From Rhodopseudomonas sp. BR0M22 (GTDB lineage Bacteria > Pseudomonadota > Alphaproteobacteria > Rhizobiales > Xanthobacteraceae): a DNA stretch of 54,378 nucleotides. Under the pieces are notes generated by a model. That model searched no databases. It was not told the origin of the DNA and saw nothing but the letters and a program-made list of their open reading frames with translations. A program made the translations under genes and the position numbers. The DNA lies in NCBI RefSeq assembly GCF_010907035.1, contig NZ_QUMK01000035.1, forward strand, positions 1-54,378, in the 5' to 3' direction. Below, in pieces: positions 11,155 to 32,214 of this stretch; position 1 is the stretch's first letter, and each line of letters starts with the position of its first letter.

Positions 11155-11909
11155 TCGTCGTGAACAACGTCTCGCTCGCCCATCAGGGCGCGCCGATCCT
11201 CCAAGACATCAATCTGGAAATCCCGGAGACCGGCGTCACCGCGTTGATCGGGCCGAACGGAGCCGGCAAATCGAGCCTGTTATCGCTGATCGCCCGGCTT
11301 CAGCCATTGCAGCAAGGCACCATCACGGTTGACGGCTTGACCGTCGGCGCGACGCCGAGCCGCATACTCGCCCGCACGCTCGCGATCCTGCGGCAGGATC
11401 CGGCGATTGCCAGCCGGCTGCGCGTGCGTGAGCTGGTCGCCTTCGGCCGGTTCCCGCACAATGGCGGCCGCATCACCGACGAAGATCGGGCACTGACCCA
11501 GGCCGCGCTCGAACGCTTCGATCTGACGTCATTCGCCGACCGCTTCATCGACACGCTGTCCGGCGGACAGCGGCAACTCGTATTGGTGGCGATGACGTTC
11601 TGTCAGGGCACGCGATGGTTGCTGCTGGATGAGCCGCTCAACAATCTCGACATGTTTTATGCCCGCGAGCTGATGCGCGCCCTCCGCGAGATCGCCGACA
11701 GCGAACGGCGGGCCATCGTGATCGTTTTGCACGATATCAATCAGGCGGTGACTTACGCCGATTACATCGTCGCCCTGAAGCACGGCGCGGTGGTCGCGAA
11801 CGGCCCTCCGGCGCTGATCGCAAACACAACCAGCTTGCAGCGGATCTTCGGCTATGAGATGCCGGTCGAAAGCTATCACGGCAAGCCGATCGTTCTGAAC
11901 CACTTATGA
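11151..11909 (+). CDS. Iron-siderophore ABC transporter ATPase (FatE/YclP-like)
   Basis: This 252-aa ABC ATPase has Walker A (GPNGAGKSS), a Q-loop at AILRQDPAI, the signature LSGGQRQL, Walker B (WLLLDEPLNNLD) and the switch histidine in VLHDINQA. It energises uptake through the two permeases. The start at 11151 overlaps the permease stop; the longer open frame upstream is a shadow. It is the last gene of the tightly overlapping biosynthesis-uptake operon, followed by a 119-bp gap before fecR. Confidence 0.88.
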   Translation: MIVVNNVSLAHQGAPILQDINLEIPETGVTALIGPNGAGKSSLLSLIARLQPLQQGTITVDGLTVGATPSRILARTLAILRQDPAIASRLRVRELVAFGRFPHNGGRITDEDRALTQAALERFDLTSFADRFIDTLSGGQRQLVLVAMTFCQGTRWLLLDEPLNNLDMFYARELMRALREIADSERRAIVIVLHDINQAVTYADYIVALKHGAVVANGPPALIANTTSLQRIFGYEMPVESYHGKPIVLNHL

Positions 11910-12028
11910 AGTCTTGATGCATTGAAACACGGCATCCTACGATCCCACGCGAGAATGCGGCGACGGCCGCGCGTTGGAGACGCGCGACCTCGATCATGCC
12001 CCCGCACAGCGCGAGAGATGGCGTGGAG

Positions 12029-13018: not shown

Positions 13019-13116
13019 TGCTTCTCAGTATTTTTACGGGTTTTGCCTCGCACGCACGTTGATCAGCGAGGGCTCTGAACGCGTACCCCTCGACCGTCGT
13101 GGGGGACGTCAAGACC

Positions 13117-15348: not shown

Positions 15349-15360
15349 CAGGCCCGCGCC

Positions 15361-15858
15361 ATGGACAACGACATGCATGTGATCATTCGAGCGATGCGCC
15401 GGGAAGATACCGCCGACATCTACGACATCGTCAATCAACACGCCTTTCGGTTCTGGACTCTCGCCCTTCCCTTCGAGTCGTTCGAAACCATCGCCAAATG
15501 GCTGGAGCCGCAGTCCCCGCGCGACCTGCACTACTCGGCCGAGCTGGATGGACGCATCATCGGAGCGTCAGCCTTGCGCCCGTTTTACGGGCGCCGCGCC
15601 CACGCAGCGGAATTCTGGATCGGCGTTCACGAAGACTACGCGCGCATCGGCGTCGGCTCGAAGCTGCTCGCCGCGATGATCGACACCGCCGACAACTGGC
15701 TGAACATCAAACGGCTGGAGATGACGGTGTTCACCGACAATGTCGCAGCGTTGGCGCTGTACGCGAAGTTCGGTTTCACGATCGAGGGCACCCACAAGGC
15801 CGCCAGCTTTAGAGACGGTGAGTTCGTCGACGCCCATTGCATGGCGCGGCTGCGATGA
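15361..15858 (+). CDS. GNAT-family N-acetyltransferase
   Basis: This 165-aa GNAT protein has the acetyl-CoA pyrophosphate-binding motif RIGVGSKLLAAMI (about residues 97-109, R-x-x-G-x-G/A pattern) and the C-terminal signature VFTDNVAALALYAKFGFTIEGTHKAAS of YhhY/RimJ-like amine acetylases. It lies only 12 bp after the signalling receptor and before the second receptor, inside the iron gene block. R. palustris makes petrobactin variants called rhodopetrobactins (literature recollection). Acetylation of a siderophore amine is therefore a reasonable but unproven role. ATG 15361 has a weak ribosome-binding site; ATG 15373 is an alternative. Confidence 0.85.
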   Translation: MDNDMHVIIRAMRREDTADIYDIVNQHAFRFWTLALPFESFETIAKWLEPQSPRDLHYSAELDGRIIGASALRPFYGRRAHAAEFWIGVHEDYARIGVGSKLLAAMIDTADNWLNIKRLEMTVFTDNVAALALYAKFGFTIEGTHKAASFRDGEFVDAHCMARLR

Positions 15859-16008
15859 ACCGCCGCTCCCTCCCTCGCATGCGGCCTCGACCCGCTGCTC
15901 AACGCGGCAGCGAAACCTGGCCCCAGATCACAGCTGATCGCCCGCAAGCTTCCGCGGCGCGACGATAGCCCTCCACGACATTCCACAAAGAACATCTCGG
16001 AGATATTG

Positions 16009-19129: not shown

Positions 19130-19738
19130 TCACCCCTCGCCCGGAGCTGGGCTGGTGAACCCATAAAGAAACAGGTCGACGACCGTGTCGGCGAATTCGG
19201 TCGGGCTCAGTCCACGGGCTGGATCGAACCAAGTGTGACTGAAGTTCAGAATCCCGAACAGCATCATGGTGTAGACCGTCTTGGTCCGCTTCACGATCTT
19301 GCGCCGGCTGTCCAATCGGATCAGAAGTTCCGAAACGATCTCGACGATCTGCCGCTCCAACGCTCTGATCGACGTCTGCTCGGCCTCGCTGAGAAAGGCC
19401 ATATCGTTCAGGATGAGACGCTGCTCGTTAGGAGAACGCGCGTTGAGCTCGACGATCGCGCGGATCGCGGCACGAAACTGAGCAAGCGTGTCCGTCTCGG
19501 CTGCGATCGCGTCCTCGACGTCCGCGATCATGCGCCGGACGTGGGCATCGAGGATGGCGAACAGGATCGCTTCCTTGGACTGGAAGTAATGATAGAGCGC
19601 TCCACGGGACAACCGGCAGGCGTCCGCGAGCTCGGCGATCGAGGCCCGCATGTAGCTCTGCCGGGCAAATAGTTCGCAAGCGACGGTCAGAATCCCATTC
19701 TGGATGTCGTCGTAGTTTTCTGAGCGGGTCCGCGCCAT
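19130..19738 (-). CDS. TetR-family transcriptional regulator (TetR1)
   Basis: This 202-aa regulator has an N-terminal TetR DNA-binding domain (residues about 10-56; the helix-turn-helix lies around SIAELADACRLSRGALYHYFQSKEAI) and a variable ligand-binding C-terminal half. Its first residues (MARTRSENYDD) closely resemble those of the other TetR at 24940-25608 (MPRVRADNYDD), so the two are probably related. It heads the catabolic island, and its own promoter carries an inverted repeat at 19755-19773. The inducer is unknown; an acyl-CoA or pathway acid is the family-based guess. Confidence 0.88.
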   Translation of the reverse strand: MARTRSENYDDIQNGILTVACELFARQSYMRASIAELADACRLSRGALYHYFQSKEAILFAILDAHVRRMIADVEDAIAAETDTLAQFRAAIRAIVELNARSPNEQRLILNDMAFLSEAEQTSIRALERQIVEIVSELLIRLDSRRKIVKRTKTVYTMMLFGILNFSHTWFDPARGLSPTEFADTVVDLFLYGFTSPAPGEG

Positions 19739-19754
19739 TACAGCCTTTCGAGCC

Positions 19755-19773
19755 GTCCGACCGCGAGTCGGAC
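19755..19773. promoter_or_regulatory. Inverted repeat upstream of TetR1 (candidate autoregulatory operator)
   Basis: GTCCGAC (19755-19761) and GTCGGAC (19767-19773) are perfect complements across a 5-nt spacer, 17 bp upstream of the TetR1 start. The inner CCGAC/GTCGG core is shared with the five 24-bp operators of the island, but the spacing between cores is 5 rather than 2 nt. It is therefore either a site for a different regulator or a divergent version. Confidence 0.5.
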
Positions 19774-19926
19774 CGGTTGTCTGTTTGCGCCTCCGTTACT
19801 GCCCAGACGCGGCCGGTGCAATCATTTATCGAACGGCCGACCGGATTAGGGAGGCATTCGAACCGCCCTGCCCGAAGCCCATGCGGAAGCAGACAGACGA
19901 AACCTGAGGCGCGCACGAACGCCGGC

Positions 19927-21114
19927 TTACAGACCACGGAAATGAGGACGACGTTTACTGGCGAAGGCCACCACACCTTCCTGTGCGTCACCGGTTCGGG
20001 CCGAAACGACGATGGTCTCACATTCCTCGCCGAGTTGCTCCGTCAGCCCGGTTTCAAAGGATTGGCGGAGCAGCCGGCGCATCGCGCCGTAAGCTTTGGT
20101 CGGACCAGCCGCGAGCTTTCTGGCGATCCCATAGGCTTCGTCTTCCACCTCGCCATCGGCCACAACCCGGGTGACGATGCCGTATGCGAGGGCTTCATCG
20201 GCGGTCAGGCGGCGGTTCAGCAGAAAGAGTTCCTGAGCCCGGCGCATGCCGACCATCCGCGGCAGAAACCAGGTGTTGCCGCCGTCAGAAGTCAGGCCGA
20301 GCGCGGCGTAGCCGAGCGCGAACCGAGAATCGTGGGCTGCGACCACGATGTCGGCGGCGTAAAGAAGGCCCAAGCCTCCCCCTGCCGCCGCCCCCCGAAC
20401 GGCTGCGATCACAGGCGCATCGAAGCCCGTCAGCCTCTCGATGGCGAGATGATATCCGTCGATCATTGAGCGCAAACGGGCGGGCAGTTCGGCCGGCTCG
20501 GTGCCGGCGAACAATGCGACGTCGCCGCCGACAGTGAAGTTGGCTCCCGACCCTGCGATCACGATTGCGCGCACGCCGCTGGCGTCCGCAATCGCCTTCA
20601 CGGCCGCATTCAATTCGGACGCCATCGCTTCATTGATGGCGTTGCCTTGTTCTGGCCGGTTCAGCCGAAGCGTGGCGATGCCTTCCACGATATCGAGCCG
20701 CACCACGCCCGTCGTCGGGCCGGCTGCGTCACGCCAACGCGCGGTGTCGGTGAATTGCTGGAGCGCGCTGATCCGCTCACCGTCGAATGTCAGGATGTGC
20801 GCAAAGGCAGCGTCGAGCGCTCCACCGTTTCGGCTACGCCCGCGATAACGGCCAGTTGCCAGCAAACGATCGTCGCCGATCTCGAGGAAATTGTCCGGCT
20901 CGGCCCGAGCATCGAAATGCCTTGCGATTCCGCCCCAGCCGTTGCGACGCATCGCGGCCGCGCCGTCGTGCTTGCCGCCGACCTGGAACGGCATGCCTTC
21001 TGCGATCTCTCCGACAAAATCTGGATGCAGAATCCGGTCGAGATGCTCGCGGTCTCCGGCAGACAAAGCGTCGTACAACGAGCGCGCCAGATCCGCTCGA
21101 CTCCTTGGTTGCAT
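19927..21114 (-). CDS. SnoaL-like domain fused to enoyl-CoA hydratase/isomerase
   Basis: This 395-aa protein combines two folds. Residues 1 to about 126 look like a SnoaL/NTF2-like alpha+beta barrel (ARSLYDALSAGDREHLDRILHPDF, ending HILTFDGERISALQQFTD). Residues about 137-395 are a crotonase: the GANFTVGGDVALF oxyanion-hole strand, GAAAGGGLGLLYAADIV, then a segment ending in SDGGNTWFLPRMVG. In the crotonase half an Asp sits where many hydratases have the second Glu, as in PaaG-like members. AGGAGGTG just upstream of the ATG supports this start, so the N-terminal domain is genuinely translated. It is 77 bp downstream of the CoA ligase gene on the same strand, and the pair is probably one transcript. 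Confidence 0.85.
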   Translation of the reverse strand: MQPRSRADLARSLYDALSAGDREHLDRILHPDFVGEIAEGMPFQVGGKHDGAAAMRRNGWGGIARHFDARAEPDNFLEIGDDRLLATGRYRGRSRNGGALDAAFAHILTFDGERISALQQFTDTARWRDAAGPTTGVVRLDIVEGIATLRLNRPEQGNAINEAMASELNAAVKAIADASGVRAIVIAGSGANFTVGGDVALFAGTEPAELPARLRSMIDGYHLAIERLTGFDAPVIAAVRGAAAGGGLGLLYAADIVVAAHDSRFALGYAALGLTSDGGNTWFLPRMVGMRRAQELFLLNRRLTADEALAYGIVTRVVADGEVEDEAYGIARKLAAGPTKAYGAMRRLLRQSFETGLTEQLGEECETIVVSARTGDAQEGVVAFASKRRPHFRGL

Positions 21115-21191: not shown

Positions 21192-22757
21192 TCAACCAAC
21201 GGCGCGCTCGCGTACGGCCCAGTACGGCCCACGCAACTCGTGCTTGAGCAGCTTACCAGCCGCCGACACCGGCAATGCGTCGCGGAATTCGACGCTCGCC
21301 GGACACTTGTAGCCGGCGATGTACTTGCGGCAATGGTCGCGCAGCTCGGCTGATGTCGCCTCGGCGCCTGTGCGAAGGACGACGACGGCATGGACTTGCT
21401 CGCCCCACCGCGCGCTCGGAATGCCGATCACTGCGCAACTCGCGATCGCGGGATGCCGCGCCAACGCGTTCTCCACCTCCGCGGAGTAGACATTCTCGCC
21501 TCCGGAAACGATCATGTCCTTCAGCCGGTCCACGATGAACAAGAAACCTTCGGGATCGACGTAGCCCATGTCGCCAGAGCGCAGCCACCCGTTGCGAAAG
21601 GCGTCCGTCGTTTCCTGCTCTCGATTCCAATAGCCGGTCATGACGCCGATGCCGCGAGCGACGATCTCGCCCACCGCTCCGACTTGGTTCTCCGCGCCGT
21701 CGAGATCCTGGATCTGCATCTCGATGCCCCACGCCGGTCTCCCGGCCGACCGCAGACGGGCCTTGTCGGCGGGATCGTCCGAGCGATGGCAATGAGGCGG
21801 CAGGATCGTGTACGGCCCTCCTGTCTCGGTCATGCCGTAACCCTGGTAGAAGTCGACCTGTGGCAGCGCCTTCAACAGCCGCCCAAGAAGCTCTTCATTG
21901 ATCGGCGACGCGCCGTACACGATCTTTCGCAGGCTGCCGAGGTCGAACTCGCCGAACTCGGGATGTTCGATCAGCCGCTGCAGCATCGTCGGCACCAGCA
22001 GTGTGAACGTCGCCCGCTCCGTCGTGATCGCCCGCAACACCTGCGCGGGCTCGAACGCCTCTACGTAGACGGTTCTGCAACCTCGCACCAATGCTCGGAT
22101 CAGGATACACATCCCGGCTTGGTGAAAGATCGGCGCAACGGCGAGCACGACCTCGTCGGAACCGTAAGCCACGTCGAGCAGATTACAGATCGCGTTCCCG
22201 AGCAGCGCGTTGTGGCTCAGCATGACGCCTTTCGGAAACCCCGTGGTGCCGCCCGTGTAAAACACGCCGGCGAGATCATCGCCTCCGCGCCGTGCATCTC
22301 CCACCGGCCGGGCTTCCCGCATCAATTGCTCAGCGTGCAGCACGCCTTCGGGCGCGATACCGTCGCCGAAGTAAACGATCGTCTTCAGCGACCTGCTGAG
22401 CGCCCGAAGGTCGTCGCACCACGATAGGAAATGATCATCGACGAGCAAGATGTTGGTGTCGCAATCGTCGAGAGAAAAGGCGACTTCGGCCGCGCTCCAG
22501 CGGGTATTCGCCGGATTGAGCGCACCGCCGCCCCACCAGACGCCGAGCATGTACTCCAGATAGCGATCCGAATTCAGCGCGAGCATCGCAACGCGGTCGC
22601 CCGGCGCCATGCCGATCTGTTGGAGGACCGCGGCGAGCCGCGCAGTCCGATCCGCAAGTTCCCGCCATGTTCGACGCCGATCGCCGAAGATCGTCCCCAC
22701 GGCGTCGGGCGCGCATCGGATCTGACGATGCAGTCCATCGGTCAAGTTGAGTTTCAC
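21192..22757 (-). CDS. Acyl/aryl-CoA synthetase (AMP-forming)
   Basis: This 521-aa ANL-family ligase has the P-loop FYTGGTTGFPKGVMLSH, the A5 motif GYGMTETGGP, WLRSGDMGYVDPEG, the hinge DRLKDMIVSGGENVYSAEVE and the C-terminal catalytic lysine in VSAAGKLLKHEL. It should activate a carboxylic acid to its CoA thioester as the entry step of this catabolic island; the substrate cannot be read from sequence. The GTG at 22757 is preferred because GAGGGAGA lies about 9 nt upstream. A GTG at 22784 is in frame but has no ribosome-binding sequence. A perfect 24-bp palindrome lies 88 bp upstream. Confidence 0.88.
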   Translation of the reverse strand: MKLNLTDGLHRQIRCAPDAVGTIFGDRRRTWRELADRTARLAAVLQQIGMAPGDRVAMLALNSDRYLEYMLGVWWGGGALNPANTRWSAAEVAFSLDDCDTNILLVDDHFLSWCDDLRALSRSLKTIVYFGDGIAPEGVLHAEQLMREARPVGDARRGGDDLAGVFYTGGTTGFPKGVMLSHNALLGNAICNLLDVAYGSDEVVLAVAPIFHQAGMCILIRALVRGCRTVYVEAFEPAQVLRAITTERATFTLLVPTMLQRLIEHPEFGEFDLGSLRKIVYGASPINEELLGRLLKALPQVDFYQGYGMTETGGPYTILPPHCHRSDDPADKARLRSAGRPAWGIEMQIQDLDGAENQVGAVGEIVARGIGVMTGYWNREQETTDAFRNGWLRSGDMGYVDPEGFLFIVDRLKDMIVSGGENVYSAEVENALARHPAIASCAVIGIPSARWGEQVHAVVVLRTGAEATSAELRDHCRKYIAGYKCPASVEFRDALPVSAAGKLLKHELRGPYWAVRERAVG

Positions 22758-22844
22758 CTGGTCGTTCTCCCTCGATTCGATCACGCGAATTCCGAGCTTG
22801 GTGCCTCGGCGCGGCGATCATTGGCCCTCTTAACGGGGCACATC

Positions 22845-22868
22845 ATTAGACCGACGCGTCGGTCTAAT
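22845..22868. promoter_or_regulatory. TetR-type operator 1 (perfect palindrome)
   Basis: The two 12-bp halves ATTAGACCGACG (22845-22856) and CGTCGGTCTAAT (22857-22868) are exact reverse complements. The site sits 88 bp upstream of the CoA ligase start. It is the most perfect of five related sites in the island. Confidence 0.8.
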
Positions 22869-23003
22869 TCCTGGCCGCGGTTTCCGTCCTGTCGGCCTGC
22901 AAGCCGCGGCTTAATTGTCGCGCATTCCGACCGGTCGCACCGCGTTCAATTTCGCGGATTCCCCACCCGTCGCGATCATCGGACGCGAGAACCGACGTTG
23001 CGA

Positions 23004-23561
23004 TCAGATCAGGAACGAGATCGTATAGATCGGCTTGTTGTTATTGACGAGGACGACCTTCTTGAACGCCATCTTCAACATTCCATTCTGTCGTCGCAGT
23101 CGATAGCAACAGCGCGCCGCCCACATCGTGTCGCCACGCAGATTGGTTTCGAAGATCTGACTGTTGCATGCGACCCCGATGTCCTCGCCTTCGGACTGCA
23201 ACAATTCGATATTTCCGATGATACGTGCGAGCTGTGACGGTGGTGTCTGCGAATGACGTCGGCCGGTCTTCAACTGGCGGACACGCAATGCGATACGCGA
23301 TCGGTTGTCGTAGATCAGCGACATCTCGCGCTCCGGATCTGTATCGGCGCCGTTGGCCGGCACCCAATACACCGCGTCGTCAGTCCACAGGGCCTCCCAC
23401 GCATCGTACTCGTGAGTGTCCTGCAGGTGCGCTTCGCGATAGAGAAACTGACTCACCCGATGATGGAGATCGGCGTCGACCTTGTCGGCGTAGCTCAGAT
23501 CCCGGCCGCTCCACTGCTTCAGGATGTCCTGTGCAGGGCGTTCGCTCGTCTCGGCATCCAT
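23004..23561 (-). CDS. Rieske ring-hydroxylating oxygenase, beta subunit
   Basis: This 185-aa protein has the small-subunit fold of aromatic-ring dioxygenases: RVSQFLYREAHLQDTHEYDAWEALWTDDAVYWVPA near the N-terminus and a C-terminal strand ending KPIYTISFLI. Beta subunits are structural and help shape substrate specificity. Its ATG is the last base group of the alpha-subunit stop region (1-nt overlap), so the two are translationally coupled. No ferredoxin or reductase gene lies nearby, so the electron-transfer partner must be encoded elsewhere. Confidence 0.88.
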   Translation of the reverse strand: MDAETSERPAQDILKQWSGRDLSYADKVDADLHHRVSQFLYREAHLQDTHEYDAWEALWTDDAVYWVPANGADTDPEREMSLIYDNRSRIALRVRQLKTGRRHSQTPPSQLARIIGNIELLQSEGEDIGVACNSQIFETNLRGDTMWAARCCYRLRRQNGMLKMAFKKVVLVNNNKPIYTISFLI

Positions 23562-24817
23562 CAGCAGGCCTCCATCAGCGTGCGGTAGTGCTTCCAGATT
23601 TCACGTGACGGCAGATCGTCGGTCGAATGTCCGACGACGAATCCGTCGTCGTCGCGCCGCTCGCGATGCTCGCCCCGCTTCAGATAGAGATATTCGGGCG
23701 AACGGATCTCCAGCCCTCGCTGATTCCGTTCGTACATCTCGGTATCGTCCGCGAGCAGGAATCCCGCCGGGCCGACCGATCCCATCGTCTGCTGCCTGAG
23801 CCGCCGGTTGATCTCCGGCGAATCCTTGAACTGGATCGCAGTGACGTGCTGGATCGACTCCACGGCCGACACCGGTTGAATGACGAATATCTGGATCTCG
23901 GCGATGAACAGATTAGGAAAGATCATGACGTGTGGCATTCCATCGATCATGATCTGCCGGGCGCGTTTGTCGCCATAGGCGGACTTCATCTGCGCGGTGT
24001 ATTCCGGCAGCTTCTCGGCCGTCGTGCCGAACCAGCTCATCGGCTGATCGCGGCGGCGGAATTCCGGCCGCGGGTCGACCTCGGTGTGGCCATTTCCAAA
24101 GCCGCGCGTGACAGCGACAGCGTCGTTGCCATACAGGCTGCCGATGGCACTGTCTGCGACCGAGAAAATCGAAGAGTGCACGAATGCCGGATGATAGCCG
24201 TCGCACTCGTTCTCCAGGATGAACTTCCAATTGGCTCGCGCGCGATGACGCAGGAAGCCGGCACTGAGATCCAGCTCGCCGGTCGGTGAGTTTTCGCAGG
24301 CTTGATCGAGCGTTCGGCGCGCACCGCCGAGATGCTCTTCGAGCGACGGTCCGTCTTGCGCCATCGAGGCGAAGACGAAGCCGCGGTAACTTGCCACGCG
24401 CGGCACCTTCGCCAGACCGAGGCCCGACTTGTCGGTTCCGGCATATCCTTCTGGGAAGGCGTAGTTCATCAGCTTGCCGTCGTTCGCGAATGTCCACGAA
24501 TGATATGGGCAGGTGAACGACTTGCGATTTCCTTTGTCCTGCACACACACCGCATTGCCACGATGAGGACAGCGATTGAGAAGGAGATTGATCTCGCCGT
24601 GCTGATTGCGAACCATCAGGACGGGCATCGGTCCGATCGACTTGGTAACGAAGTCGTTGAGGTTGGGCACCTCGCTGTCATGCCCGACGTAGACCCAGGT
24701 CTTGAACCAGATCTTCTCCAGTTCCTCCTTGAAGATCGTGGCGTCGGAATAGAGAGAGCCATGGACCATTCCTGGCCGAATGAGCTTCTCCCAAGGGCTG
24801 TGCAGACCAACTTCCAC
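23561..24817 (-). CDS. Rieske ring-hydroxylating oxygenase, alpha subunit
   Basis: This 418-aa oxygenase component has a Rieske [2Fe-2S] site with Cys83, His85, Cys103 and His106 (CPHRG ... CPYHSW) and the mononuclear-iron ligands His209 and His214 near Asp206 in NECDGYHPAFVH. It belongs to the group that attacks aromatic acids or related rings; the substrate is unknown. The GTG start has GGGAGAAG upstream. Operator 2 lies 24 bp upstream of the start. With its beta subunit it forms a two-gene unit on the minus strand. Confidence 0.9.
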   Translation of the reverse strand: MEVGLHSPWEKLIRPGMVHGSLYSDATIFKEELEKIWFKTWVYVGHDSEVPNLNDFVTKSIGPMPVLMVRNQHGEINLLLNRCPHRGNAVCVQDKGNRKSFTCPYHSWTFANDGKLMNYAFPEGYAGTDKSGLGLAKVPRVASYRGFVFASMAQDGPSLEEHLGGARRTLDQACENSPTGELDLSAGFLRHRARANWKFILENECDGYHPAFVHSSIFSVADSAIGSLYGNDAVAVTRGFGNGHTEVDPRPEFRRRDQPMSWFGTTAEKLPEYTAQMKSAYGDKRARQIMIDGMPHVMIFPNLFIAEIQIFVIQPVSAVESIQHVTAIQFKDSPEINRRLRQQTMGSVGPAGFLLADDTEMYERNQRGLEIRSPEYLYLKRGEHRERRDDDGFVVGHSTDDLPSREIWKHYRTLMEAC

Positions 24818-24840
24818 CGGCGCTTCTCCCGTCTCTTCTT

Positions 24841-24864
24841 TATAATCCGGACAGTCGGTCTATA
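24841..24864. promoter_or_regulatory. TetR-type operator 2
   Basis: The right half AGTCGGTCTATA (24853-24864) matches the island consensus exactly. The left half TATAATCCGGAC (24841-24852) is degenerate. It lies 24 bp upstream of the Rieske alpha-subunit start, where a bound repressor would block transcription or initiation. Confidence 0.65.
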
Positions 24865-24939
24865 AATAGAATGCAAACAATTGTCAATCGCGAGCGTGAC
24901 AGCAACGGTCGCAACCGGCGCTCTAAGCAGCAGCGGAGA

Positions 24940-25608
24940 TCAAGTTCGAGATAGTTTGTGAGCACGCGCCTTGTGGCCGCGCGGCGCCCGTCCCTCGTCC
25001 TCCGGCGACCGCCCCTCCGACGTCTCGGCCAGAAAGCCGCCGAGATAGAGCCGCGCAATCCGGTCGCAAAGCTCACGAGGCTTCATCTTTCCCGCCGGCC
25101 GATACCAGAGATCGGTCCAGTTCAGCATTCCGATCAACAGCATTGCGTAGGGTGCATAAACCTCGTCTGGCAAGCCAGGATTGACGTCGCGAAGCAATCC
25201 GCCCAGCGTTCGCCTCACCTTTCGTTCCAGCCGCAAGACCTGCGCGCGCTTTTCAGTGGGCAGGAACTTGGCATCATTCATGGCGCTCACATGACGCTGA
25301 CGCGATTGCGCCGATTTCGTCACGAATACGTCGATGAAGCGCTGAAGCTGTTCATCCGGAGCTCGGCTTTCGGTCAGCGCCTGATCGATCTCGGCGAGAA
25401 GACGCTCGAGATGATCGATCAGCAGCGCGAGTAGCAGATCATCCTTGGTGGGGAAGTAGTGGTACAGCATCGACTTGGTTGCGCCACATAGTTTCGCGAC
25501 ATCCTGCAGCTTGGCGCTCGGGTAGCCGACCTTCGCGAACAGAGCCGCGGCACTGTCGAGAATCGCTCGGTACTTGTCATCGTAGTTGTCGGCTCGAACG
25601 CGTGGCAT
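24940..25608 (-). CDS. TetR-family transcriptional regulator (TetR2)
   Basis: This 222-aa regulator has an N-terminal DNA-binding domain (about residues 10-57; the helix-turn-helix is in LQDVAKLCGATKSMLYHYFPTKDDL) and a longer helical C-terminal domain with a basic, Arg/Lys-rich tail. It resembles TetR1 at both the start and the body (LLIGMLNWTDLWYRPAGKMKP versus LFGILNFSHTWFDPARGLSP). It is divergent from the MBL-fold gene, with operator 3 between them, so it is the best candidate for the repressor that binds all five sites. The start at 25608 (MPRVRADNYDD) is preferred over 25632 by family length and a purine-rich site upstream. Confidence 0.87.
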   Translation of the reverse strand: MPRVRADNYDDKYRAILDSAAALFAKVGYPSAKLQDVAKLCGATKSMLYHYFPTKDDLLLALLIDHLERLLAEIDQALTESRAPDEQLQRFIDVFVTKSAQSRQRHVSAMNDAKFLPTEKRAQVLRLERKVRRTLGGLLRDVNPGLPDEVYAPYAMLLIGMLNWTDLWYRPAGKMKPRELCDRIARLYLGGFLAETSEGRSPEDEGRAPRGHKARAHKLSRT

Positions 25609-25704
25609 TCCTGCCCCCTCTTGCATTTGCAATCGCAGCTTGCGGTCCGGAGCGCGTCATCTGGTGCATCGGTGAGCGCGCACCAGCGCGGCTGAACGCG
25701 TTGA

Positions 25705-25728
25705 CATAAACCGTCCCGTCGGTCTTAT
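25705..25728. promoter_or_regulatory. TetR-type operator 3 (divergent promoter)
   Basis: The right half CGTCGGTCTTAT (25717-25728) fits the island consensus and the left half CATAAACCGTCC (25705-25716) is weaker. It lies between TetR2 (97 bp away, minus) and the MBL-fold gene (about 190 bp away, plus). TTGACA overlaps its left edge at 25701-25706 and could be a -35 element for the plus-strand promoter. The rest of the 310-bp gap shows nothing else recognisable. Confidence 0.6.
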
Positions 25729-25918
25729 ATTTTGCCACAGATCAAACATGCGGGCCACTTGTCCGAATGGACGCGACATTGTCCTGCCGCGCAATCGGTG
25801 CACGAGCCAATGCCGGCGCGCCGTCAGGCGGATTTCTGATCTGCGCCACCGGCACGAAGATCGACGATCGTTCGAAACACTGAATGATCGTGGACCGAGC
25901 AAACACGGAAGGACGATG

Positions 25919-26974
25919 ATGCAGCCCGACACCGCCGCGCCTGCTCCGGCCCACTTGGACTTTCCCTTTCCCCAGCCGCCGCAGTTTGGCGAGGTGACAG
26001 AGGTGCGTCCCGGCCTGCTCTGGCTACGTCTGCCGCTGCCGTTCCAGCTCGATCATGTGAACATCTACCTGATCCGAGATGCGGACGGCTGGGCCATCCT
26101 CGACACCGGTTTATCGGCGGACGAGGCACTCGCAGTCTGGGACGGCTATTTCGGCGGCGCATTGCGCGGATTCAAAATCACGCGGATCGTGGTCACACAC
26201 CACCATCCAGACCATATCGGCCTTGCGGGATGGCTGTGCAAACGCTTTCAAGCGCCGCTCCTCACCAGCCTGTCGAGCTATATGAGCTGCCGGGTGATCT
26301 CGCTCGACCCGCAGGCTTTCGAATCGCCGGCGAACCGGCTGTTCTATGAGAGTCACGGTATGGACGACGATGCTGCGCGCATCGTCAGCACGCAGGGCCA
26401 CGAGTACTTACGACAAGTGGGCCCTTTGCCCGACACGTTTCTGCGCCTGGTGATGGGGGATATGCTGACGCTCGGCGACAGAAGCTTTCGCGTGCTCACC
26501 GGCGACGGTCATTCGGCCGAGCAAGTCATGCTTTACTGCGAGAAGGACCGGCTGCTGTTCGTCGCGGATCAAGTGCTGGAGCGGATTTCGCCGAACGTCG
26601 CCGTCTGGGCCGGAGAGCCGGACGGCGATCCTCTCGGGCACTTCCTGCGCAGCCTCCGTCTGCTGGCGAGCCAGATCCCCAACGATGTCCTCGTACTTCC
26701 CGGACACCGGCGACCGTTCTACGGTCTCCATCAGCGCGCGCAGGAGTTGGTGGACCATCACGAGAACCGCTGCCGCATTCTGGCCGAAGCGTGCAGCGCC
26801 CATCAGCATTCGATTGCGGAGCTCGTTCCGCTGCTGTTCAGCCGTCCGCTGGACCCCCACCAAATGGGGTTCGCGTTCGCCGAGACGCTCGCACATGCCA
26901 ATCGGCTGGTGCGACGCGGGATTCTCGACGTCGTATCACGACAGGATCGCTACGTCTTCACCGCCAGGCGCTGA
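25919..26974 (+). CDS. Metallo-beta-lactamase-fold hydrolase
   Basis: This 351-aa MBL-fold protein has the metal motif H94-x-H96-x-D98-H99 (VTHHHPDHIG), an earlier WAILDTGL strand, a later GDGHSAEQ, and the VLVLPGHRRPF histidine that completes the site. A C-terminal winged-helix-like region ending RRGILDVVSRQDRYVF is as in LACTB2-like MBL proteins. Such enzymes hydrolyse thioesters, lactones or phosphodiesters; in this CoA-thioester context a thioesterase-like role is possible. Two tandem ATGs (25916 and 25919) follow AAGGA, and the second has the better spacing. Its 3' end overlaps the convergent FAD oxidoreductase gene by 25 bp. Confidence 0.85.
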   Translation: MQPDTAAPAPAHLDFPFPQPPQFGEVTEVRPGLLWLRLPLPFQLDHVNIYLIRDADGWAILDTGLSADEALAVWDGYFGGALRGFKITRIVVTHHHPDHIGLAGWLCKRFQAPLLTSLSSYMSCRVISLDPQAFESPANRLFYESHGMDDDAARIVSTQGHEYLRQVGPLPDTFLRLVMGDMLTLGDRSFRVLTGDGHSAEQVMLYCEKDRLLFVADQVLERISPNVAVWAGEPDGDPLGHFLRSLRLLASQIPNDVLVLPGHRRPFYGLHQRAQELVDHHENRCRILAEACSAHQHSIAELVPLLFSRPLDPHQMGFAFAETLAHANRLVRRGILDVVSRQDRYVFTARR

Positions 26975-28305
26975 CCGCCAACCGATCGGGATGCGACCTC
27001 GGTAGCGGCAAGTTCGGCCAACGCCTTGTTTGCAGCCTCACGGCCCGTGAAGGCACAGGCCTGCGTGCCGCCGTCGCCATAGTCTTTCACCGCGTCGCCT
27101 ACATGCCAGAGATTTGCCAGCGGGGTGTCTTGCGACAAGTCGAACCCGGCGCAGGACCGCTGTGCCGGCCACTCGCCCTTCATGACACGGACCGACAGCA
27201 TCTTGGCATCTACGAATGCCGGAAACAGGTCGCGGAGATCGGCCAGTGACGCATCGATTTCAGACTGATCGTCGAAATCGCCGATTGCCGGCCGCGGAAC
27301 GGCGTAGGCGACGTACTGATACCAGCCTGCCGGGGCGAGTTCGGGACAGGTCGCGGTCAATTCGCCCATGTTGCACAGCCGCCGGGTCTTTCCGAAGGTC
27401 ACCAGACCGGGCACGTCGAGTAGACGCTCGCGCGTGGCAAAGTTGATGACGATGTTGGCGGCCGGCTTCGGCTGCGCCTTGGCCTGATCGATATAGGCCG
27501 TCCCCATCGCATCGGCGCCCGGCAGACAGGCCGTTGCTGCTGGACCGATATTGCTGATCACGACGCCGGGCTCAACTCGAACGGTCGAGCCCGCGCGCTC
27601 GATCGTCACCGCGACGACCCGGCCGCTGCGCACCTCGAGGCCGGTGACCGCCGCTCCGGTCCACACGTCGCCGCCGCGGCTTCGGATGCCCTCCGCCAAG
27701 TCGTTCCACAAGCCTACTGTGCCCCGTGGGCAGAATCCGAAACGTTTGAACGCTCCCTTCACCGCGAAATAAGTGAGAAAGGCGCGCGCCGGCAGTTCGT
27801 CCGCGTTGACGGCGAAGATGGCAGCGCAAAGGTTGCGGAAGATCGCATGTACCGTGGCATTGGATGTGTATTGCTCGAGCCACTGCTTGGTCGTCAGCTT
27901 GGCTTCAGGCAGATCGCCGGCGCGGGCGTCGGAGAATTTCGCCCCGATCTTCGCGGCTTGCTTGGTGAACGTGCCCAGCAGCATTCCCCAACCGCCTTTG
28001 GCGACGTTGATGACCTTGCCGTCGATGAGGAACACCGTGGCAGGATTGGGTTCACGAATATCCAGAGGGACGCCAAGCAGATCGAATGTCTCCTCGAAGA
28101 CTCCGCCTCGCTCGATCGCAATCGCGCCGACATTGACGATGTGCCCGTCGATGACTTCGCTCGAGGCGCGGCCTCCCAGGCGGTCTAAACGTTCGGCAAC
28201 CAGCACCGATTTGCCCGCAGCGACCAGGCGCGCTGCAGCCGTCAGGCCGCCGGCGCCGGCGCCGATCACGAGAGCATCGAAATGCAGAGCTGATGTATCA
28301 CTCAA
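26950..28305 (-). CDS. FAD-dependent oxidoreductase, phytoene desaturase-like
   Basis: This 451-aa flavoprotein has an N-terminal dinucleotide-binding motif (DALVIGAGAGGLTAAARL, then VLVAERLDRLGGRASS) and a C-terminal FAD motif (LANLWHVGDAVKDYGDGGTQACAFTGREAA). It belongs to the COG1233-type amine-oxidase/phytoene-desaturase superfamily. No carotenoid genes are near, so desaturation or oxidation of a pathway intermediate is more likely. A TTG start at 28305 has AGGAGG 6 nt upstream. It is the last gene of a four-gene minus-strand unit (enoyl-CoA hydratase, SDR, esterase, this gene) whose promoter region holds operator 4. Confidence 0.85.
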   Translation of the reverse strand: MSDTSALHFDALVIGAGAGGLTAAARLVAAGKSVLVAERLDRLGGRASSEVIDGHIVNVGAIAIERGGVFEETFDLLGVPLDIREPNPATVFLIDGKVINVAKGGWGMLLGTFTKQAAKIGAKFSDARAGDLPEAKLTTKQWLEQYTSNATVHAIFRNLCAAIFAVNADELPARAFLTYFAVKGAFKRFGFCPRGTVGLWNDLAEGIRSRGGDVWTGAAVTGLEVRSGRVVAVTIERAGSTVRVEPGVVISNIGPAATACLPGADAMGTAYIDQAKAQPKPAANIVINFATRERLLDVPGLVTFGKTRRLCNMGELTATCPELAPAGWYQYVAYAVPRPAIGDFDDQSEIDASLADLRDLFPAFVDAKMLSVRVMKGEWPAQRSCAGFDLSQDTPLANLWHVGDAVKDYGDGGTQACAFTGREAANKALAELAATEVASRSVGGQRLAVKT

Positions 28306-28351
28306 GTGAGCCTCCTGGCTGTCTTGGCCATATGGTCAGGTGCGGCCGCCA

Positions 28352-29278
28352 TCATTCGATCTTCGCGGCCGAGCCGAGATGCGCTGCGATGAAGCGGCCG
28401 CCGGCAGCGATCGCCTCTTCCGCTTGAGGCAGATCGCGGGCGAATTGCTGAAACACATGAATCATTCCCGGCCAGATTTCGAATTGCACCGGCACTCCCT
28501 CGGCCTGCGCCAACGCCGCAAAATCGACCGTGTCGCTGACCAGCGTTTCGCGTTCGCCGACCTGAAGCAGCATCGGCGGCAATCTGCTGAGGAGTTCGCG
28601 AGGCGCCCGTAACGGCGACCATCTGGGATCATCGGTCGCGCCATCCGGCCCGAGCGCGCCTTGCGCCATCGCCTGGATGAGATGGCGCTGATGAATCGGA
28701 TCGAGCTCAGCGCGCTCGGCGTAGCTCACGCCCGACGCGGTCAAATCGGTCCATGCCGACATCAGATAGGCGGCTGCGGGCCGCGGCTTTCCATCCTTCA
28801 GTCGAGACAGGATCGCTGAAACCGCAAGGCCGCCCCCCGCAGAGTCGCCTGCTACGGCCGTCTGCGTGGCGGCGAAGCCGGTCTGCTCCAGCCAATCCAG
28901 CACCGCCACGGCATCATCGATCGCCGCGGGCAACGGATGTTCGGGCGCCAACCTATAGTCGATCCCGATCACCTGCACGCCGGCCGCGGTCGCAAGCCGC
29001 GCCATCAGGTCACGGTGCGACGCCACGGAGCCGACCCGATAGCCGCCGCCGTGGAGATAGACGATGACGGCGTCAGCTCGTTGTCGTGCAGGCCTGATCC
29101 AGTGACACGGCACGCCGCCTGCGTCGACCGGCTCGACCTCTGCATCGATCTCGACATCGAACAGAGCATCCCAATCCGCGCGCATCTGCGAAACTGGAGT
29201 ATCTCGGCGCCACCGCGAGTACACCCGGCGGATCCTGGCGACAACCGCATCGACCGAGTCCTGCGTCACGCGCCGCAT
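28352..29278 (-). CDS. Alpha/beta-hydrolase, hormone-sensitive-lipase family esterase
   Basis: This 308-aa esterase has the HSL-family oxyanion motif HGGGYRVGS, the nucleophile elbow GDSAGGGLA (catalytic Ser), LVSDTVDFA near the catalytic Asp, and the C-terminal His in GMIHVFQQF. It should hydrolyse an ester or lactone, perhaps releasing the acid that the CoA ligase activates. It overlaps the end of the SDR gene by 13 bp, showing tight operon packing. An in-frame GTG 9 nt into the gene is an alternative start. Confidence 0.88.
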   Translation of the reverse strand: MRRVTQDSVDAVVARIRRVYSRWRRDTPVSQMRADWDALFDVEIDAEVEPVDAGGVPCHWIRPARQRADAVIVYLHGGGYRVGSVASHRDLMARLATAAGVQVIGIDYRLAPEHPLPAAIDDAVAVLDWLEQTGFAATQTAVAGDSAGGGLAVSAILSRLKDGKPRPAAAYLMSAWTDLTASGVSYAERAELDPIHQRHLIQAMAQGALGPDGATDDPRWSPLRAPRELLSRLPPMLLQVGERETLVSDTVDFAALAQAEGVPVQFEIWPGMIHVFQQFARDLPQAEEAIAAGGRFIAAHLGSAAKIE

Positions 29279-30000
29279 CCCATGCCGCCGGAGACGCCGA
29301 GCGCTTCGCCGGTGATGTAGCCTGCCCTTTCAGACGCTAGAAAAGCGATGGCGGCGGCGACTTCATCGGGCGAGCCGAGACGGTCCAGCAGCGTCGCGGA
29401 GGTCATCGCCCCCATCAGTTTGTCGCCCCCTTCGGAAACCGCACGCCGAAGCAGCGGCGTGTCGATCGGACCAGGCGTCACGACATTGGCCGTCACCCCC
29501 ATCGCGCCACTCTCCCGGGCGATCGACCGCGTGAAGGCGATCACTCCGCCCTTCGCCGCGGCGTAAACCGCCCCGCCACGCGATCCGAGGCGACCGGCCT
29601 CCGACGCCACGTTGATGATGCGGCCGTAGCGGCGCTCCTGCATCGACGGCAGCACAGCATGCGTCGTGTTGAGCACCGCGATCAGGTTTACGGCGATCAG
29701 CTTGGCCCACTCCTGCGGGCTGGTTCGCGTGAAGAAGGCGTGCTGATCGACGCCCGCGCTGTTGACCAGAATGTCGAACGGTCCGCGGGTCGCGATGGTC
29801 TCGCGGACCGCCGCGTAGTTCGTCAGATCGGCCGTCAGAAAGCAGGCACCGATCTCTTCGGCCACGCGCCGGCCACCGCTCTGATCAAGGTCGACGATCG
29901 TCACCGCGACGCCATCCGCCGCCAAGTGCGACGCCGCGGCGGCACCGATGCCACTTGCGCCGCCCGCCACTAGTGCGTGTCGCTTGGTCTGCACCGTCAT
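29266..30000 (-). CDS. Short-chain dehydrogenase/reductase
   Basis: This 244-aa classical SDR has the cofactor loop GGASGIGAA (an AGG variant of TGxxxGIG), the structural motif NSAG, the catalytic YAAAK with the upstream Ser (NVASEAG), and the C-terminal GYITGEALGVSGGMG. An Asp after strand 2 (VTIVDLDQSGG) suggests NAD rather than NADP. It probably oxidises a hydroxyacyl intermediate after the hydratase step. It begins 3 bp after the enoyl-CoA hydratase stop. Confidence 0.9.
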   Translation of the reverse strand: MTVQTKRHALVAGGASGIGAAAASHLAADGVAVTIVDLDQSGGRRVAEEIGACFLTADLTNYAAVRETIATRGPFDILVNSAGVDQHAFFTRTSPQEWAKLIAVNLIAVLNTTHAVLPSMQERRYGRIINVASEAGRLGSRGGAVYAAAKGGVIAFTRSIARESGAMGVTANVVTPGPIDTPLLRRAVSEGGDKLMGAMTSATLLDRLGSPDEVAAAIAFLASERAGYITGEALGVSGGMGCGA

Positions 30001-30003
30001 CGT

Positions 30004-30840
30004 TCAGCGTCCGGTGAACTTCGGGCTGCGCTTTTCGATCACGGCCGAGAGACCTTCACGAGCATCGGCCATCCCGGACAGCACTTCCTGAGCTTGGTTT
30101 TCCTCCGGCATGGCAGCTTCGACGCCTTCTCCAAGACCATTCCAGAGCAAGCGTTTCGTGTTCGCCAGCGCAGCCGGGGCACCGCCGGCAAGCGTGCGCG
30201 CCAAGGCCCATGCCTGATCGAGCAACTCGGCATCCGGCACGACGCGCGTGATCAAGCCGATGTCACGGGCCTGTGGCGCATCGAGCACCGGATTGAGCAT
30301 CAGGATCTCCATCGCGCGCCGGAAGCCGACGAGCTGCGTCAGCGTCACCGTCACGCCGGCGTCCGGAACCATCGCAACCCGCGTCGCGCCGGCGATGAAT
30401 TTTGCGGACTCGGCGGCCACGACGAAATCGGATGCACATACCAGCCCCATGCCTCCGCCGCCTGCAGCGTATCCCTGCACGGCAGTCACGACCGGCGCCT
30501 TCAGACGGATCAAGCTACTTGCAACCATGCCGAGATAAGCCGTCGCCACTCGAATGTAGGCAGGCAATTCCGTGCCCTTGGCGAGGAAGGTGTGAACGTC
30601 GCCGCCCGCGCAGAAATTAGCGCCCTCGCCCGTCAGCAGAACGACGCGCACACGGTCGTCGCCATGGAGCAGCATGATCGTCTGATGAAGCGCAGTGAGC
30701 AGCTCGATGTTCAGCCCGTTGGCGGATTCGGGTCGGTTCAACCGGACATGGGCAACGCCGTCGGGATGGAGCTCCGCTGTGACTGGTCCCGTGGCGACCA
30801 GCAGCGATGTGGCGACCGTCGTCTCGTGTTCGGTCTGCAT
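30004..30840 (-). CDS. Enoyl-CoA hydratase/isomerase (crotonase family)
   Basis: This 278-aa crotonase has HVRLNRPESANGLN, the oxyanion-hole strand GEGANFCAGGDVHTF, GYAAGGGGMGLVCASDFVVA and VAMVPDAGVTVTLTQLVGFRRA. As in the fused hydratase at 19927, the second catalytic Glu position is Asp (VPDAG), so an isomerase or another crotonase reaction is possible. ATG 30840 is preferred because GGGAGGAG lies directly upstream; the frame also opens at 30870. It is the first gene of the four-gene unit behind operator 4. Confidence 0.87.
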   Translation of the reverse strand: MQTEHETTVATSLLVATGPVTAELHPDGVAHVRLNRPESANGLNIELLTALHQTIMLLHGDDRVRVVLLTGEGANFCAGGDVHTFLAKGTELPAYIRVATAYLGMVASSLIRLKAPVVTAVQGYAAGGGGMGLVCASDFVVAAESAKFIAGATRVAMVPDAGVTVTLTQLVGFRRAMEILMLNPVLDAPQARDIGLITRVVPDAELLDQAWALARTLAGGAPAALANTKRLLWNGLGEGVEAAMPEENQAQEVLSGMADAREGLSAVIEKRSPKFTGR

Positions 30841-30922
30841 CGGCTCCTCCCTTTTCAGCATTGTCGCCACTCTTGTGAGTGGTCGTCGCGGCAGTGGTCA
30901 CACCAGATCCGCGCCATCAATA

Positions 30923-30946
30923 AATAGACCGACCAGTCGGATTATG
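30923..30946. promoter_or_regulatory. TetR-type operator 4
   Basis: The left half AATAGACCGACC (30923-30934) is near-consensus and the right half AGTCGGATTATG (30935-30946) matches in its core. It lies 83 bp upstream of the enoyl-CoA hydratase start, the head of the hydratase-SDR-esterase-FAD oxidoreductase unit. Confidence 0.7.
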
Positions 30947-31003
30947 TCAATCGCAACCGCGGTTGCGCCGACGATCACAACCGGCGCAGCAGAACACGAC
31001 GGA

Positions 31004-32158
31004 TCACATCCGCTTGGCGACCTCCTCGAGCATGACCTCGGTCGCGCCGCCGCCGATCGTCAAAATCCGCGCGTCACGCACCATCCGCTCGATCGGAGTT
31101 CCTGACATGTAGCCGATGCCACCGTGAAGCTGCAGGCAAGTGTGCACCACTTCCTGCAGCGTCTCGCCGGCAAGCGCCTTCAACATGGAGACTTCGCGGA
31201 CGACGTCCTGCCCGTCGTCGATCATCGTCGCGCATTGGTAGGTGAGAGCCCGGACACCGGCGGCCTTCGCAGCCACCCAAGCCATCTTGTTGCGAACCAC
31301 CGGTTGATCCCAAAGCGACTTCCCGAACGCCTTTCGTTGACGAAGATAGTCCAACGTGAGTTGGATCGCCTTCGCACAGGCGCCCGAGACGAGCCCGCCG
31401 ATCACGAGGCGCTCGTTCTGGAACGTGCCCATAATGTAGTAGAAGCCCTTGCCCTCTTCGCCCAGAAGCGCGTCCTCGGGGACCAGCATGTCCTGAAAAA
31501 ACAGTTCCGCCGTGTCGGAGCTGAGCCAGCCGTGCTTCCGCAACTTTCCGGATACCGACAGCCCTTTCGTGCCGCGCTCCACGACGAACAAAGAGATGCC
31601 GCGCGCGCCCGCCGCATCCGGATCGGTACGCGCTGCGACGATGTAAATGTCGCCGAGAACGCCGTTGGTAATGAAAGTCTTCGACCCGTTGATCAACCAC
31701 CCGCCATCGACCCGCGTCGCACGGGTCTTGAGGCCGGCAACGTCGGAGCCGGCATGCGGCTCGGTCACGCAGATGACACCGACCTTTTCACCGGCACAGG
31801 CTGGCGGGAGATAGCGCTCCTTCTGCTGTTCGCTGCCGCGATACGCGATGTGCGAGATCGACATGTCCGAATGCACCGTCAACGCGCTCGCGACTCCGCC
31901 GAACGACGAGCGAGACAGCTCCTCCGCCAAAATCACGGACGACAATGCCCCCATGCCGCCGCCGCCATATTCGGTCGGATGCCGCATCCCGAGAAAGCCG
32001 AGCTTTCCCATCTCACGAAAGATCTCGCGCGGAATCTCGCCGGCCTCTTCCCACGACTGAGCCACCGGCGAAATCCGCTCGTCCACATACCGGCGGAGCT
32101 GAGCTCTCACGAGCGCCAGATCCCCTTCCGGCAAAGCTGGCTCGGCGAATTCGAACAT
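31004..32158 (-). CDS. Acyl-CoA dehydrogenase
   Basis: This 384-aa acyl-CoA dehydrogenase has the FAD/substrate signatures VICVTEPHAGSDVAGLKTRA and QLHGGIGYM, and the catalytic-region segment RMVRDARILTIGGGATEVM. Its role would be alpha,beta-desaturation of the CoA-activated substrate, feeding the hydratases. ATG 32158 (MFEFAEPALP) is preferred: GGGAGA lies 8 nt upstream, whereas ATG 32173 has no ribosome-binding site. Operator 5 lies about 33 bp upstream. It is a single-gene unit. Confidence 0.9.
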   Translation of the reverse strand: MFEFAEPALPEGDLALVRAQLRRYVDERISPVAQSWEEAGEIPREIFREMGKLGFLGMRHPTEYGGGGMGALSSVILAEELSRSSFGGVASALTVHSDMSISHIAYRGSEQQKERYLPPACAGEKVGVICVTEPHAGSDVAGLKTRATRVDGGWLINGSKTFITNGVLGDIYIVAARTDPDAAGARGISLFVVERGTKGLSVSGKLRKHGWLSSDTAELFFQDMLVPEDALLGEEGKGFYYIMGTFQNERLVIGGLVSGACAKAIQLTLDYLRQRKAFGKSLWDQPVVRNKMAWVAAKAAGVRALTYQCATMIDDGQDVVREVSMLKALAGETLQEVVHTCLQLHGGIGYMSGTPIERMVRDARILTIGGGATEVMLEEVAKRM

Positions 32159-32190
32159 CTTGCGGTCTCCCATGCGCGATCGGCCGAATT

Positions 32191-32214
32191 AATAGACCGA
32201 CGAGTCGGTTTATA
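32191..32214. promoter_or_regulatory. TetR-type operator 5
   Basis: AATAGACCGACG (32191-32202) and AGTCGGTTTATA (32203-32214) form a strong imperfect palindrome 33 bp upstream of the acyl-CoA dehydrogenase start. It shares the CCGAC-NN-GTCGG core and A/T-rich flanks with the other four sites. Confidence 0.75.

Follow-up and report, generated by a model that had tools for sequence, protein, structure and literature searches.

Five candidate operators and the genes they precede

We analysed a stretch of 54,378 nucleotides from Rhodopseudomonas sp. BR0M22 (contig NZ_QUMK01000035.1), here called the window, which carries a cluster of catabolic genes on both strands, two TetR-family regulator genes (tetR1 and tetR2) and five related 22-bp sites, S1 to S5, that we consider candidate operators. 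The initial annotation had reported five near-identical palindromes at 22845, 24841, 25705, 30923 and 32191. All five were found at those places, and the units they precede, inferred here from gene order, were laid out as it had described (CoA ligase; Rieske oxygenase; TetR2/MBL; hydratase-SDR-esterase-FAD oxidoreductase; acyl-CoA dehydrogenase). S1 (22846-22867) stands before the unit of the CoA ligase, a SnoaL/enoyl-CoA hydratase (ECH) fusion protein and tetR1; S2 (24842-24863) before that of the Rieske alpha and beta subunits; S3 (25706-25727) between the divergent tetR2 (minus strand) and the MBL-fold hydrolase gene (plus strand); S4 (30924-30945) before the unit of ECH, SDR, esterase and FAD oxidoreductase; and S5 (32192-32213) before the acyl-CoA dehydrogenase (ACAD) gene. 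The distance from operator to likely start codon is 88 bp for S1, 24 for S2, 97 for S3 (toward tetR2), 83 for S4 and 33 for S5; from S3 to the MBL start it is 20 or 188 bp, depending on the start codon chosen.

The sites are clearly related, and the description of them as near-identical palindromes holds only in part. S1 alone is a perfect palindrome, TTAGACCGACGCGTCGGTCTAA; symmetry from S1 to S5 amounts to 11, 6, 6, 8 and 9 of 11 positions, and pairwise identity among the five ranges from 14 to 20 of 22. Within the window one of the two halves, TAGACCGAC (AAGACCGAC at 25706), is nearly invariant, so that S2 to S5 consist of a strong half, WAGACCGAC, and a weaker partner half. The asymmetric letters of the weak halves of S2 and S3 recur, altered at no more than one or two positions, in both same-genus relatives that carry the cluster (L034 and L035, described below), which indicates that the weak halves are not noise; S1 is also kept in both. 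In more distant relatives the strong half varies too, and AGTCCGAC is common there.

Except for the MBL-fold hydrolase, all genes of the cluster lie on the minus strand. The S1 unit comprises an AMP-binding acyl-CoA ligase (21192-22784, likely GTG start at 22757), the SnoaL_2 plus ECH fusion protein of 395 aa (19927-21114), which is kept in L034, L035 and the more distant locus L055, and TetR1 (19130-19738; TetR_N and TetR_C_24 domains) as its last gene. The S2 unit encodes the alpha (23561-24817) and beta (23004-23561) subunits of a Rieske ring-hydroxylating dioxygenase. TetR2 (24940-25632, likely ATG at 25608) has the same two domains as TetR1, and the MBL-fold hydrolase opposite to it (25748-26974) starts at 25748, or at 25916/25919 with a better ribosome-binding site. 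The S4 unit holds an enoyl-CoA hydratase (30004-30870, likely ATG at 30840), an SDR dehydrogenase (29266-30000), an alpha/beta hydrolase of the hormone-sensitive-lipase type (28352-29278) and an FAD-dependent oxidoreductase resembling amine oxidases and phytoene desaturases (26950-28305), and S5 precedes the acyl-CoA dehydrogenase (31004-32173, likely ATG at 32158). Among the at most 25 families shown for each of ten window proteins, and at E <=1e-60 for ACAD and ECH, no NCBIfam equivalog exceeded its cut-off; the ligase passed the subfamily-level cut-off of PRK06187 (487.7 against 476). Neither a thiolase nor a ferredoxin gene was found among the scanned open reading frames (ORFs) of the cluster, and the pathway is therefore either incomplete there or uses partners encoded elsewhere. 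Beside the cluster, at 10204-18312, lie genes for a FecCD permease, FecR and two TonB-dependent receptors, the second of them 95% conserved in L035; no operator of the S1-S5 type occurs in that region.

Specificity of the motif and its recurrence in relatives

Scored with a matrix from which the site in question had been left out, S1 to S5 reached 28.2, 22.5, 22.7, 31.7 and 34.4, and the rest of the window did not exceed 7.6. The maxima over 100 dinucleotide shuffles for each site were 20.1, 17.7, 23.3, 18.2 and 17.7, so that only the score of S3 was beaten by at least one of its shuffles. The strict core GACCGACNNGTCGGTC gave 20 matches in the window at up to 3 mismatches against 6.9 expected and missed the site at 24842; as a genome pattern at up to 2 mismatches it was dropped as too loose (140 matches per strand versus 89 in the reversed control), because the A/T flanks hold much of the signal. 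The flanked pattern WAGACCGACNNGTCGGWYTAW was used instead. At up to 2 mismatches it occurred in the whole genome (5,293,090 bases, 159 contigs) only at the five places described here, so the motif, for which a genome scan had been proposed with the initial annotation, is not common away from these genes. At up to 3 mismatches there were 10 plus-strand and 8 minus-strand matches against 4 and 2 in the reversed control, and of these 18 matches nine fell at the five sites and nine elsewhere.

Within the genus, all five sites were present in Rhodopseudomonas sp. AAP120 (L034) and R. palustris XCP (L035). These two genomes also appear in our sets as G215 and G181 and as G415 and G416; their contig numbers and site coordinates are identical, and they were counted as two relatives only. 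The repeated motif, the TetR2 ortholog, the Rieske alpha subunit and TetR1 were found in the same 3 of 16 same-genus genomes, the other 13 having none of them at the thresholds used; the same-genus TetR2 orthologs are 84-87% identical to that of the window, and the other 13 genomes gave at most 35% among the matches listed. A scan of the family returned 15 of 391 genomes with any match at up to 1 mismatch. Outside the three carriers these were 12 genomes with one match each, fewer than the approximately 21 genomes of the reversed control.

Beyond the genus, a scan of named genomes with TetR2 yielded 63 loci, 24 of which (L034-L057) hold a TetR2 ortholog of 53-86% identity; by their titles they belong to Alpha- and Betaproteobacteria (L038 is named only Proteobacteria). 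The matrix, built from the window sites alone, scored at least 20 in 23 of the 24 loci, the exception being L045, whose contig begins at tetR2, and in none of 66 control TetR loci. In 20 of the 24, the 400 bp upstream of tetR2 contained a site scoring at least 15. We also scanned 14 whole genomes (that of L036 is outside this set) with a broadened pattern, WTADWCCGWCNNGWCGGWHTAW, at up to 1 mismatch, a setting that recovers four of the five window sites. It detected 68 sites against 0 in the reversed control and was present in 14/14 genomes. In 12 of them the sites were confined to one contig (one of these genomes has a single site) and in the other two to two and three contigs; the span reached 62 kb in Janthinobacterium and 37 kb in a Hydrogenophaga genome. 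The targets that recur in relatives are the Rieske unit, the ligase, ACAD and tetR2.

TetR2 as the proposed repressor

Both domains of TetR2 scored above their gathering cut-offs (TetR_C_24, 73.4 bits against 26.4; TetR_N, 54.3 against 24), and the NCBIfam equivalogs KstR, FadR, RutR and SACE_7040 all stayed below theirs (best SACE_7040, 67.2 against 250; KstR, 39.8 against 280). In an alignment of 19 TetR2-type proteins the recognition-helix residues K53, S54, Y57, H58, Y59 and F60 were invariant. This alignment contained 17 TetR2 orthologs, that of the window and that of L045, whose locus shows no site, included, and two paralogs; the proteins of L037, L038, L043, L047, L049, L050, L051 and L054 and the paralog of L040 were left out. 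The corresponding helix of TetR1, SRGALYHYF, has R and G where the TetR2 type has K53 and S54. A different palindrome, CSGTCCGAC N5 GTCGGACSG, lies directly upstream of tetR1 at 19753-19775. It is kept in L034 and L035 and has no second counterpart in the genome when up to 1 mismatch is allowed; the pattern overall is not over-represented (33 genome matches at up to 3 mismatches versus 62 in the control). This candidate element is best read as TetR1's own, autoregulatory site or as a stem in the leader or 5'-UTR. The site upstream of tetR2 in 20 of 24 loci, the invariant recognition helix and the other palindrome before tetR1 favour TetR2, which is thus the likely regulator of S1 to S5 and is predicted to bind them.

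By sequence, the solved structures nearest to TetR2 are 3ccy and PfmR (3vpr); KstR2 ranks lower. Among the best 50 of 1104 fold matches to its AlphaFold model were 3ccy, PfmR, DarR, BkaR, AibR with isovaleryl-CoA, KstR2 and FadR with stearoyl-CoA. Because these fold and sequence neighbours include TetR proteins linked to acyl-CoA, the modelled fold makes a CoA thioester the likely inducer of TetR2.

A repressor usually sits over the -10 element or between -35 and -10. Promoter elements were called by eye on the alignment, and at four of the five sites (S2, S3 on its MBL side, S4 and S5) the operator overlaps the -10 or fills the -35/-10 spacer. For S2, on the minus strand, the promoter reads TTGACA-N17-TATAGA and its -10 is the left arm of the operator, a layout repeated in L034, L035, L036 (TATAAT) and L055 (TATAAA); for S5 it reads TTGCGT-N17-TATAAA, the left arm again containing the -10, and L034 and L035 are arranged in a similar way. 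At S4 and at S3 toward MBL, TTGACA extends into the first base of the operator, which occupies the spacer before an AT-rich -10. The S4 promoter has TTGACA followed after 17 or 18 nt by CTATTTA, and S3, on the plus strand, follows TTGACA and fills the spacer toward MBL. Over a set of 69 sites, TTGACA-like hexamers peaked at offsets -5 (11), -3 (7) and -27 (6), the mean count per offset being 0.77. This set comprises the five window sites and 64 from 23 relative loci, taken in both orientations; many of the loci are related and not independent, and 9 of the 69 sites, inside ORFs according to a crude ORF caller, were retained in the counts. The position of the sites over the -10 or within the spacer fits repression.

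Taking together the sites, their exclusivity, their placement at four of five promoters and the co-conservation of TetR2, all read from the DNA, we propose with a probability of roughly 0.8 that S1 to S5 are operators of one local, autoregulated TetR repressor, TetR2, which a CoA thioester of the pathway would release; that TetR2 binds the sites, that it represses and that such a thioester is its ligand are predictions of this model. TetR2 would control its own gene, given S3 at tetR2 in the window and the upstream sites of the ortholog loci, and the control would be local, the operators being confined to neighbouring units. In the absence of substrate, TetR2 on S2 and S5 would cover the -10, and on S4 and on S3 toward MBL the -35/-10 spacer, shutting the cluster promoters and tetR2 itself. 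Once the ligase has produced enough of a CoA thioester of the pathway for it to accumulate, TetR2 would leave its operators, whereupon the ligase, Rieske dioxygenase, acyl-CoA dehydrogenase, hydratase, SDR, esterase, FAD oxidoreductase and MBL hydrolase would be made together. The earlier proposal of one TetR regulon over both strands is strongly supported at the sequence level by the genome-wide exclusivity, by the five sites in both same-genus carriers and by the way the sites accompany TetR2 orthologs in Alpha- and Betaproteobacteria.

That proposal had named TetR2 and/or TetR1 as the regulator, and TetR1 might bind the five sites alone or share them with TetR2 in a two-input control. TetR1 belongs to the same Pfam families, its gene lies in the S1 unit and occurs in exactly the same same-genus genomes as the cluster, and the TetR2-like paralogs of Betaproteobacteria seem to share the motif. 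Against this stand a helix without the invariant K-S pair, the different and conserved palindrome directly upstream of its own gene, and the tblastn comparison, in which TetR1 was nowhere the best query in L036-L057 (only the best-scoring query was kept per place) and sites occurred there nonetheless. We therefore regard a role of TetR1 at these sites as unlikely, and as main regulator it was set aside; of the two names, it is TetR2 that the evidence favours. Some TetR proteins activate, and FasR is named an activator in the NCBIfam listing; TetR2 could accordingly be a locus-bound activator or dual regulator, a reading that the lack of a clear promoter overlapping S1 would suit and that the geometry of S2, S4, S5 and the MBL side of S3 makes improbable. 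It is very unlikely that this is the motif of a wide fatty-acid or branched-chain regulon of the FadP/LiuQ type and just happens to be dense here: according to the available part of PMC5343134, the TetR proteins FadP and LiuQ control acyl-CoA pathways in Betaproteobacteria, but the same text gives the FadP regulon a mean of 17.9 genes per genome, and the present motif is clustered, with five sites in its own genome and one contig in most of the genomes scanned. Finally, chance alone can produce one site of the lowest grade in 54 kb of sequence, as the shuffles of S3 illustrate; five sites at five promoter regions cannot reasonably do so. Their joint exclusivity in the genome, the recurrence in 23 of 24 loci that took no part in building the matrix and the 68 versus 0 sites of the broadened-motif scan leave chance or composition hardly credible as a source of the repeats.

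Several observations weigh against repression by TetR2 through these operators. The two same-genus relatives are simply the L034 and L035 genomes, so they are not independent lines. Of the controls, 39 loci with distant TetR proteins (L058-L096; 660,766 bases) are longer stretches and AT-richer (GC 0.47) and contained two matches of at least 15, and the 27 TetR loci of family and order relatives (L123-L149), which are GC-matched (0.65) and gave no match of at least 15, are short, 93,440 bases in all. Four of the 24 ortholog loci lacked a site upstream of tetR2, namely L045, at its contig end, and L046, L050 and L057, which have sites elsewhere in the locus; two of the 20 upstream sites scored below 20 (L055, 16.4; L056, 19.1). 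Clear -35/-10 elements were not seen on the alignment at S1. In Betaproteobacteria a TetR2 paralog of 40-46% identity often stands at a site of its own, and the binder is therefore ambiguous there. The AlphaFold model of TetR2 is of moderate quality (mean pLDDT 78, pTM 0.69), and DarR, listed above among the near folds, is nucleotide-bound in its solved structures. No operator was found in the plasmid cluster of Rhodococcus PD630 (best score 4.4), although its gene set is similar, and the candidate of a motif-bearing cluster in Actinobacteria was discarded.

Related clusters, known systems and the pathway

Gene content over the full span of sites was read for the Hydrogenophaga and Janthinobacterium genomes only. 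In Hydrogenophaga (L178-L180, G420; approximately 37 kb) and Janthinobacterium (L181-L184, G427; approximately 62 kb) the operators thread clusters rich in acyl-CoA enzymes. In the Hydrogenophaga cluster, operators stand before a pair of ACAD (75% identity) and tetR2 (60%), before a unit of ABC transporter and ligase, before a ferredoxin reductase beside a TetR2 paralog (44%), before a TRAP transporter, before a unit of Rieske (66%), ECH (69%), SDR (68%), esterase (54%), HMG-CoA-synthase-like protein and thiolase, and before a small unit with an acyl-CoA thioesterase, with the FAD oxidoreductase (77%) in between. The presence of the same enzymes in this fuller cluster supports a real, shared pathway. 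Three regulators of the TetR2 type and two transporters are encoded in this cluster, as is a protein resembling 2-methylfumaryl-CoA isomerase that remained below its cut-off.

On plasmids, among 25 of 936 records, the Rieske alpha subunit had relatives of 80% identity in Sulfitobacter, 64% in Variovorax SRS16 and 55.6% in Rhodococcus PD630. The Variovorax cluster bears sites scoring 29.6, 21.5 and 19.3. The plasmid of Sulfitobacter sp. THAF37 (L150) carries a homologous Rieske/ECH/SDR cluster with its own TetR and altered motifs of the type AAGCCGGACNGTCGG; its Rieske alpha is the closest plasmid protein among the matches listed, yet the motif matches are weak (18.0 and 13.6), which suggests that the operator has drifted in this cluster. 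The Rhodococcus opacus PD630 plasmid (L152) encodes an OB-fold protein, a thiolase, an FAD oxidoreductase and other TetR proteins, as well as a 396-aa hydratase near the size of the fusion protein in the window.

Several characterized regulators resemble the TetR2 system in part. KstR2 of Mycobacterium tuberculosis is a fold neighbour of TetR2 (21-22% identical in the fold alignment); it is reportedly the repressor of the late cholesterol pathway, governing a local acyl-CoA catabolic regulon that is released by a CoA thioester, with an operator other than that of S1 to S5. The cluster described here, by contrast, encodes Rieske alpha and beta subunits, and it bears no mark of a steroid cluster. 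PfmR of Thermus thermophilus, which is said to be tied to acyl-CoA metabolism, and AibR (5k7h/5k7z), which has isovaleryl-CoA according to the entry title, are among the closest named TetR structures within the same best 50 of 1104 fold matches (22-32% identical), and their pathways differ from that of this cluster. MbdR of Azoarcus sp. CIB is described in the available text of PMC4424350 as a TetR repressor of an aromatic CoA pathway that acts at several palindromes over core promoters and is released by the first CoA intermediate, 3-methylbenzoyl-CoA. According to the same text its operator is ATACN10GTAT and its pathway anaerobic, in both of which it differs from the TetR2 system, and the one TAGACC passage in the part of PMC4424350 that was shown is a primer. 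The operator was not found described in the literature searched, which covered titles and the starts of abstracts among the matches listed; logos in figures are not searchable in this way, so its absence from print is not established.

IpfA, an enzyme of ibuprofen degradation, is said to act on a CoA ester. The first functionally linked Rieske alpha subunit among the 25 listed of 936 plasmid records was that of the ibuprofen plasmid pIBU218, whose gene adjoins genes for a beta subunit, an OB-fold protein and an AMP-binding protein. We infer from this gene order and from the available part of PMC9195938 that the pIBU218 gene is ipfA; that text describes ipfA in the ibuprofen strain and reports that its expression is not regulated by ibuprofen. 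The Rieske alpha of the window is not a close ortholog of IpfA (42.2% identity, too far for transfer of function), and the substrate likely differs from that of the ipf cluster. Thiolase and OB-fold partners like those of the ipf cluster do occur in the Hydrogenophaga relative. The Protein Data Bank neighbours of the Rieske alpha are generic. The substrate is probably a cyclic or aryl-alkanoic acid that the pathway processes in the form of its CoA ester.

The regulatory principle, a local autoregulated TetR repressor of an acyl-CoA pathway, is ordinary and of a kind already known. We further suggest, tentatively and with more doubt than confidence, that TetR2 and its operator together are the signature of an aerobic pathway, widespread and undescribed, that first converts a cyclic or aryl-alkanoic acid to its CoA thioester, which a Rieske dioxygenase then attacks, and that a single operator code governs both superclusters of up to approximately 60 kb in Betaproteobacteria and the compact five-operator form in a few Rhodopseudomonas strains. 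The operator, whose letters are nearly unchanged in Hydrogenophaga, Comamonas, Erythrobacter, Janthinobacterium and others, serves as a reading key from which much of the gene set of the pathway can be derived from DNA alone. TetR2 with one operator would be a ready sensor that could report the inducing compound and so name the substrate. The interest of the system lies in this sharp, transferable operator code for a pathway that lacks an assigned substrate.

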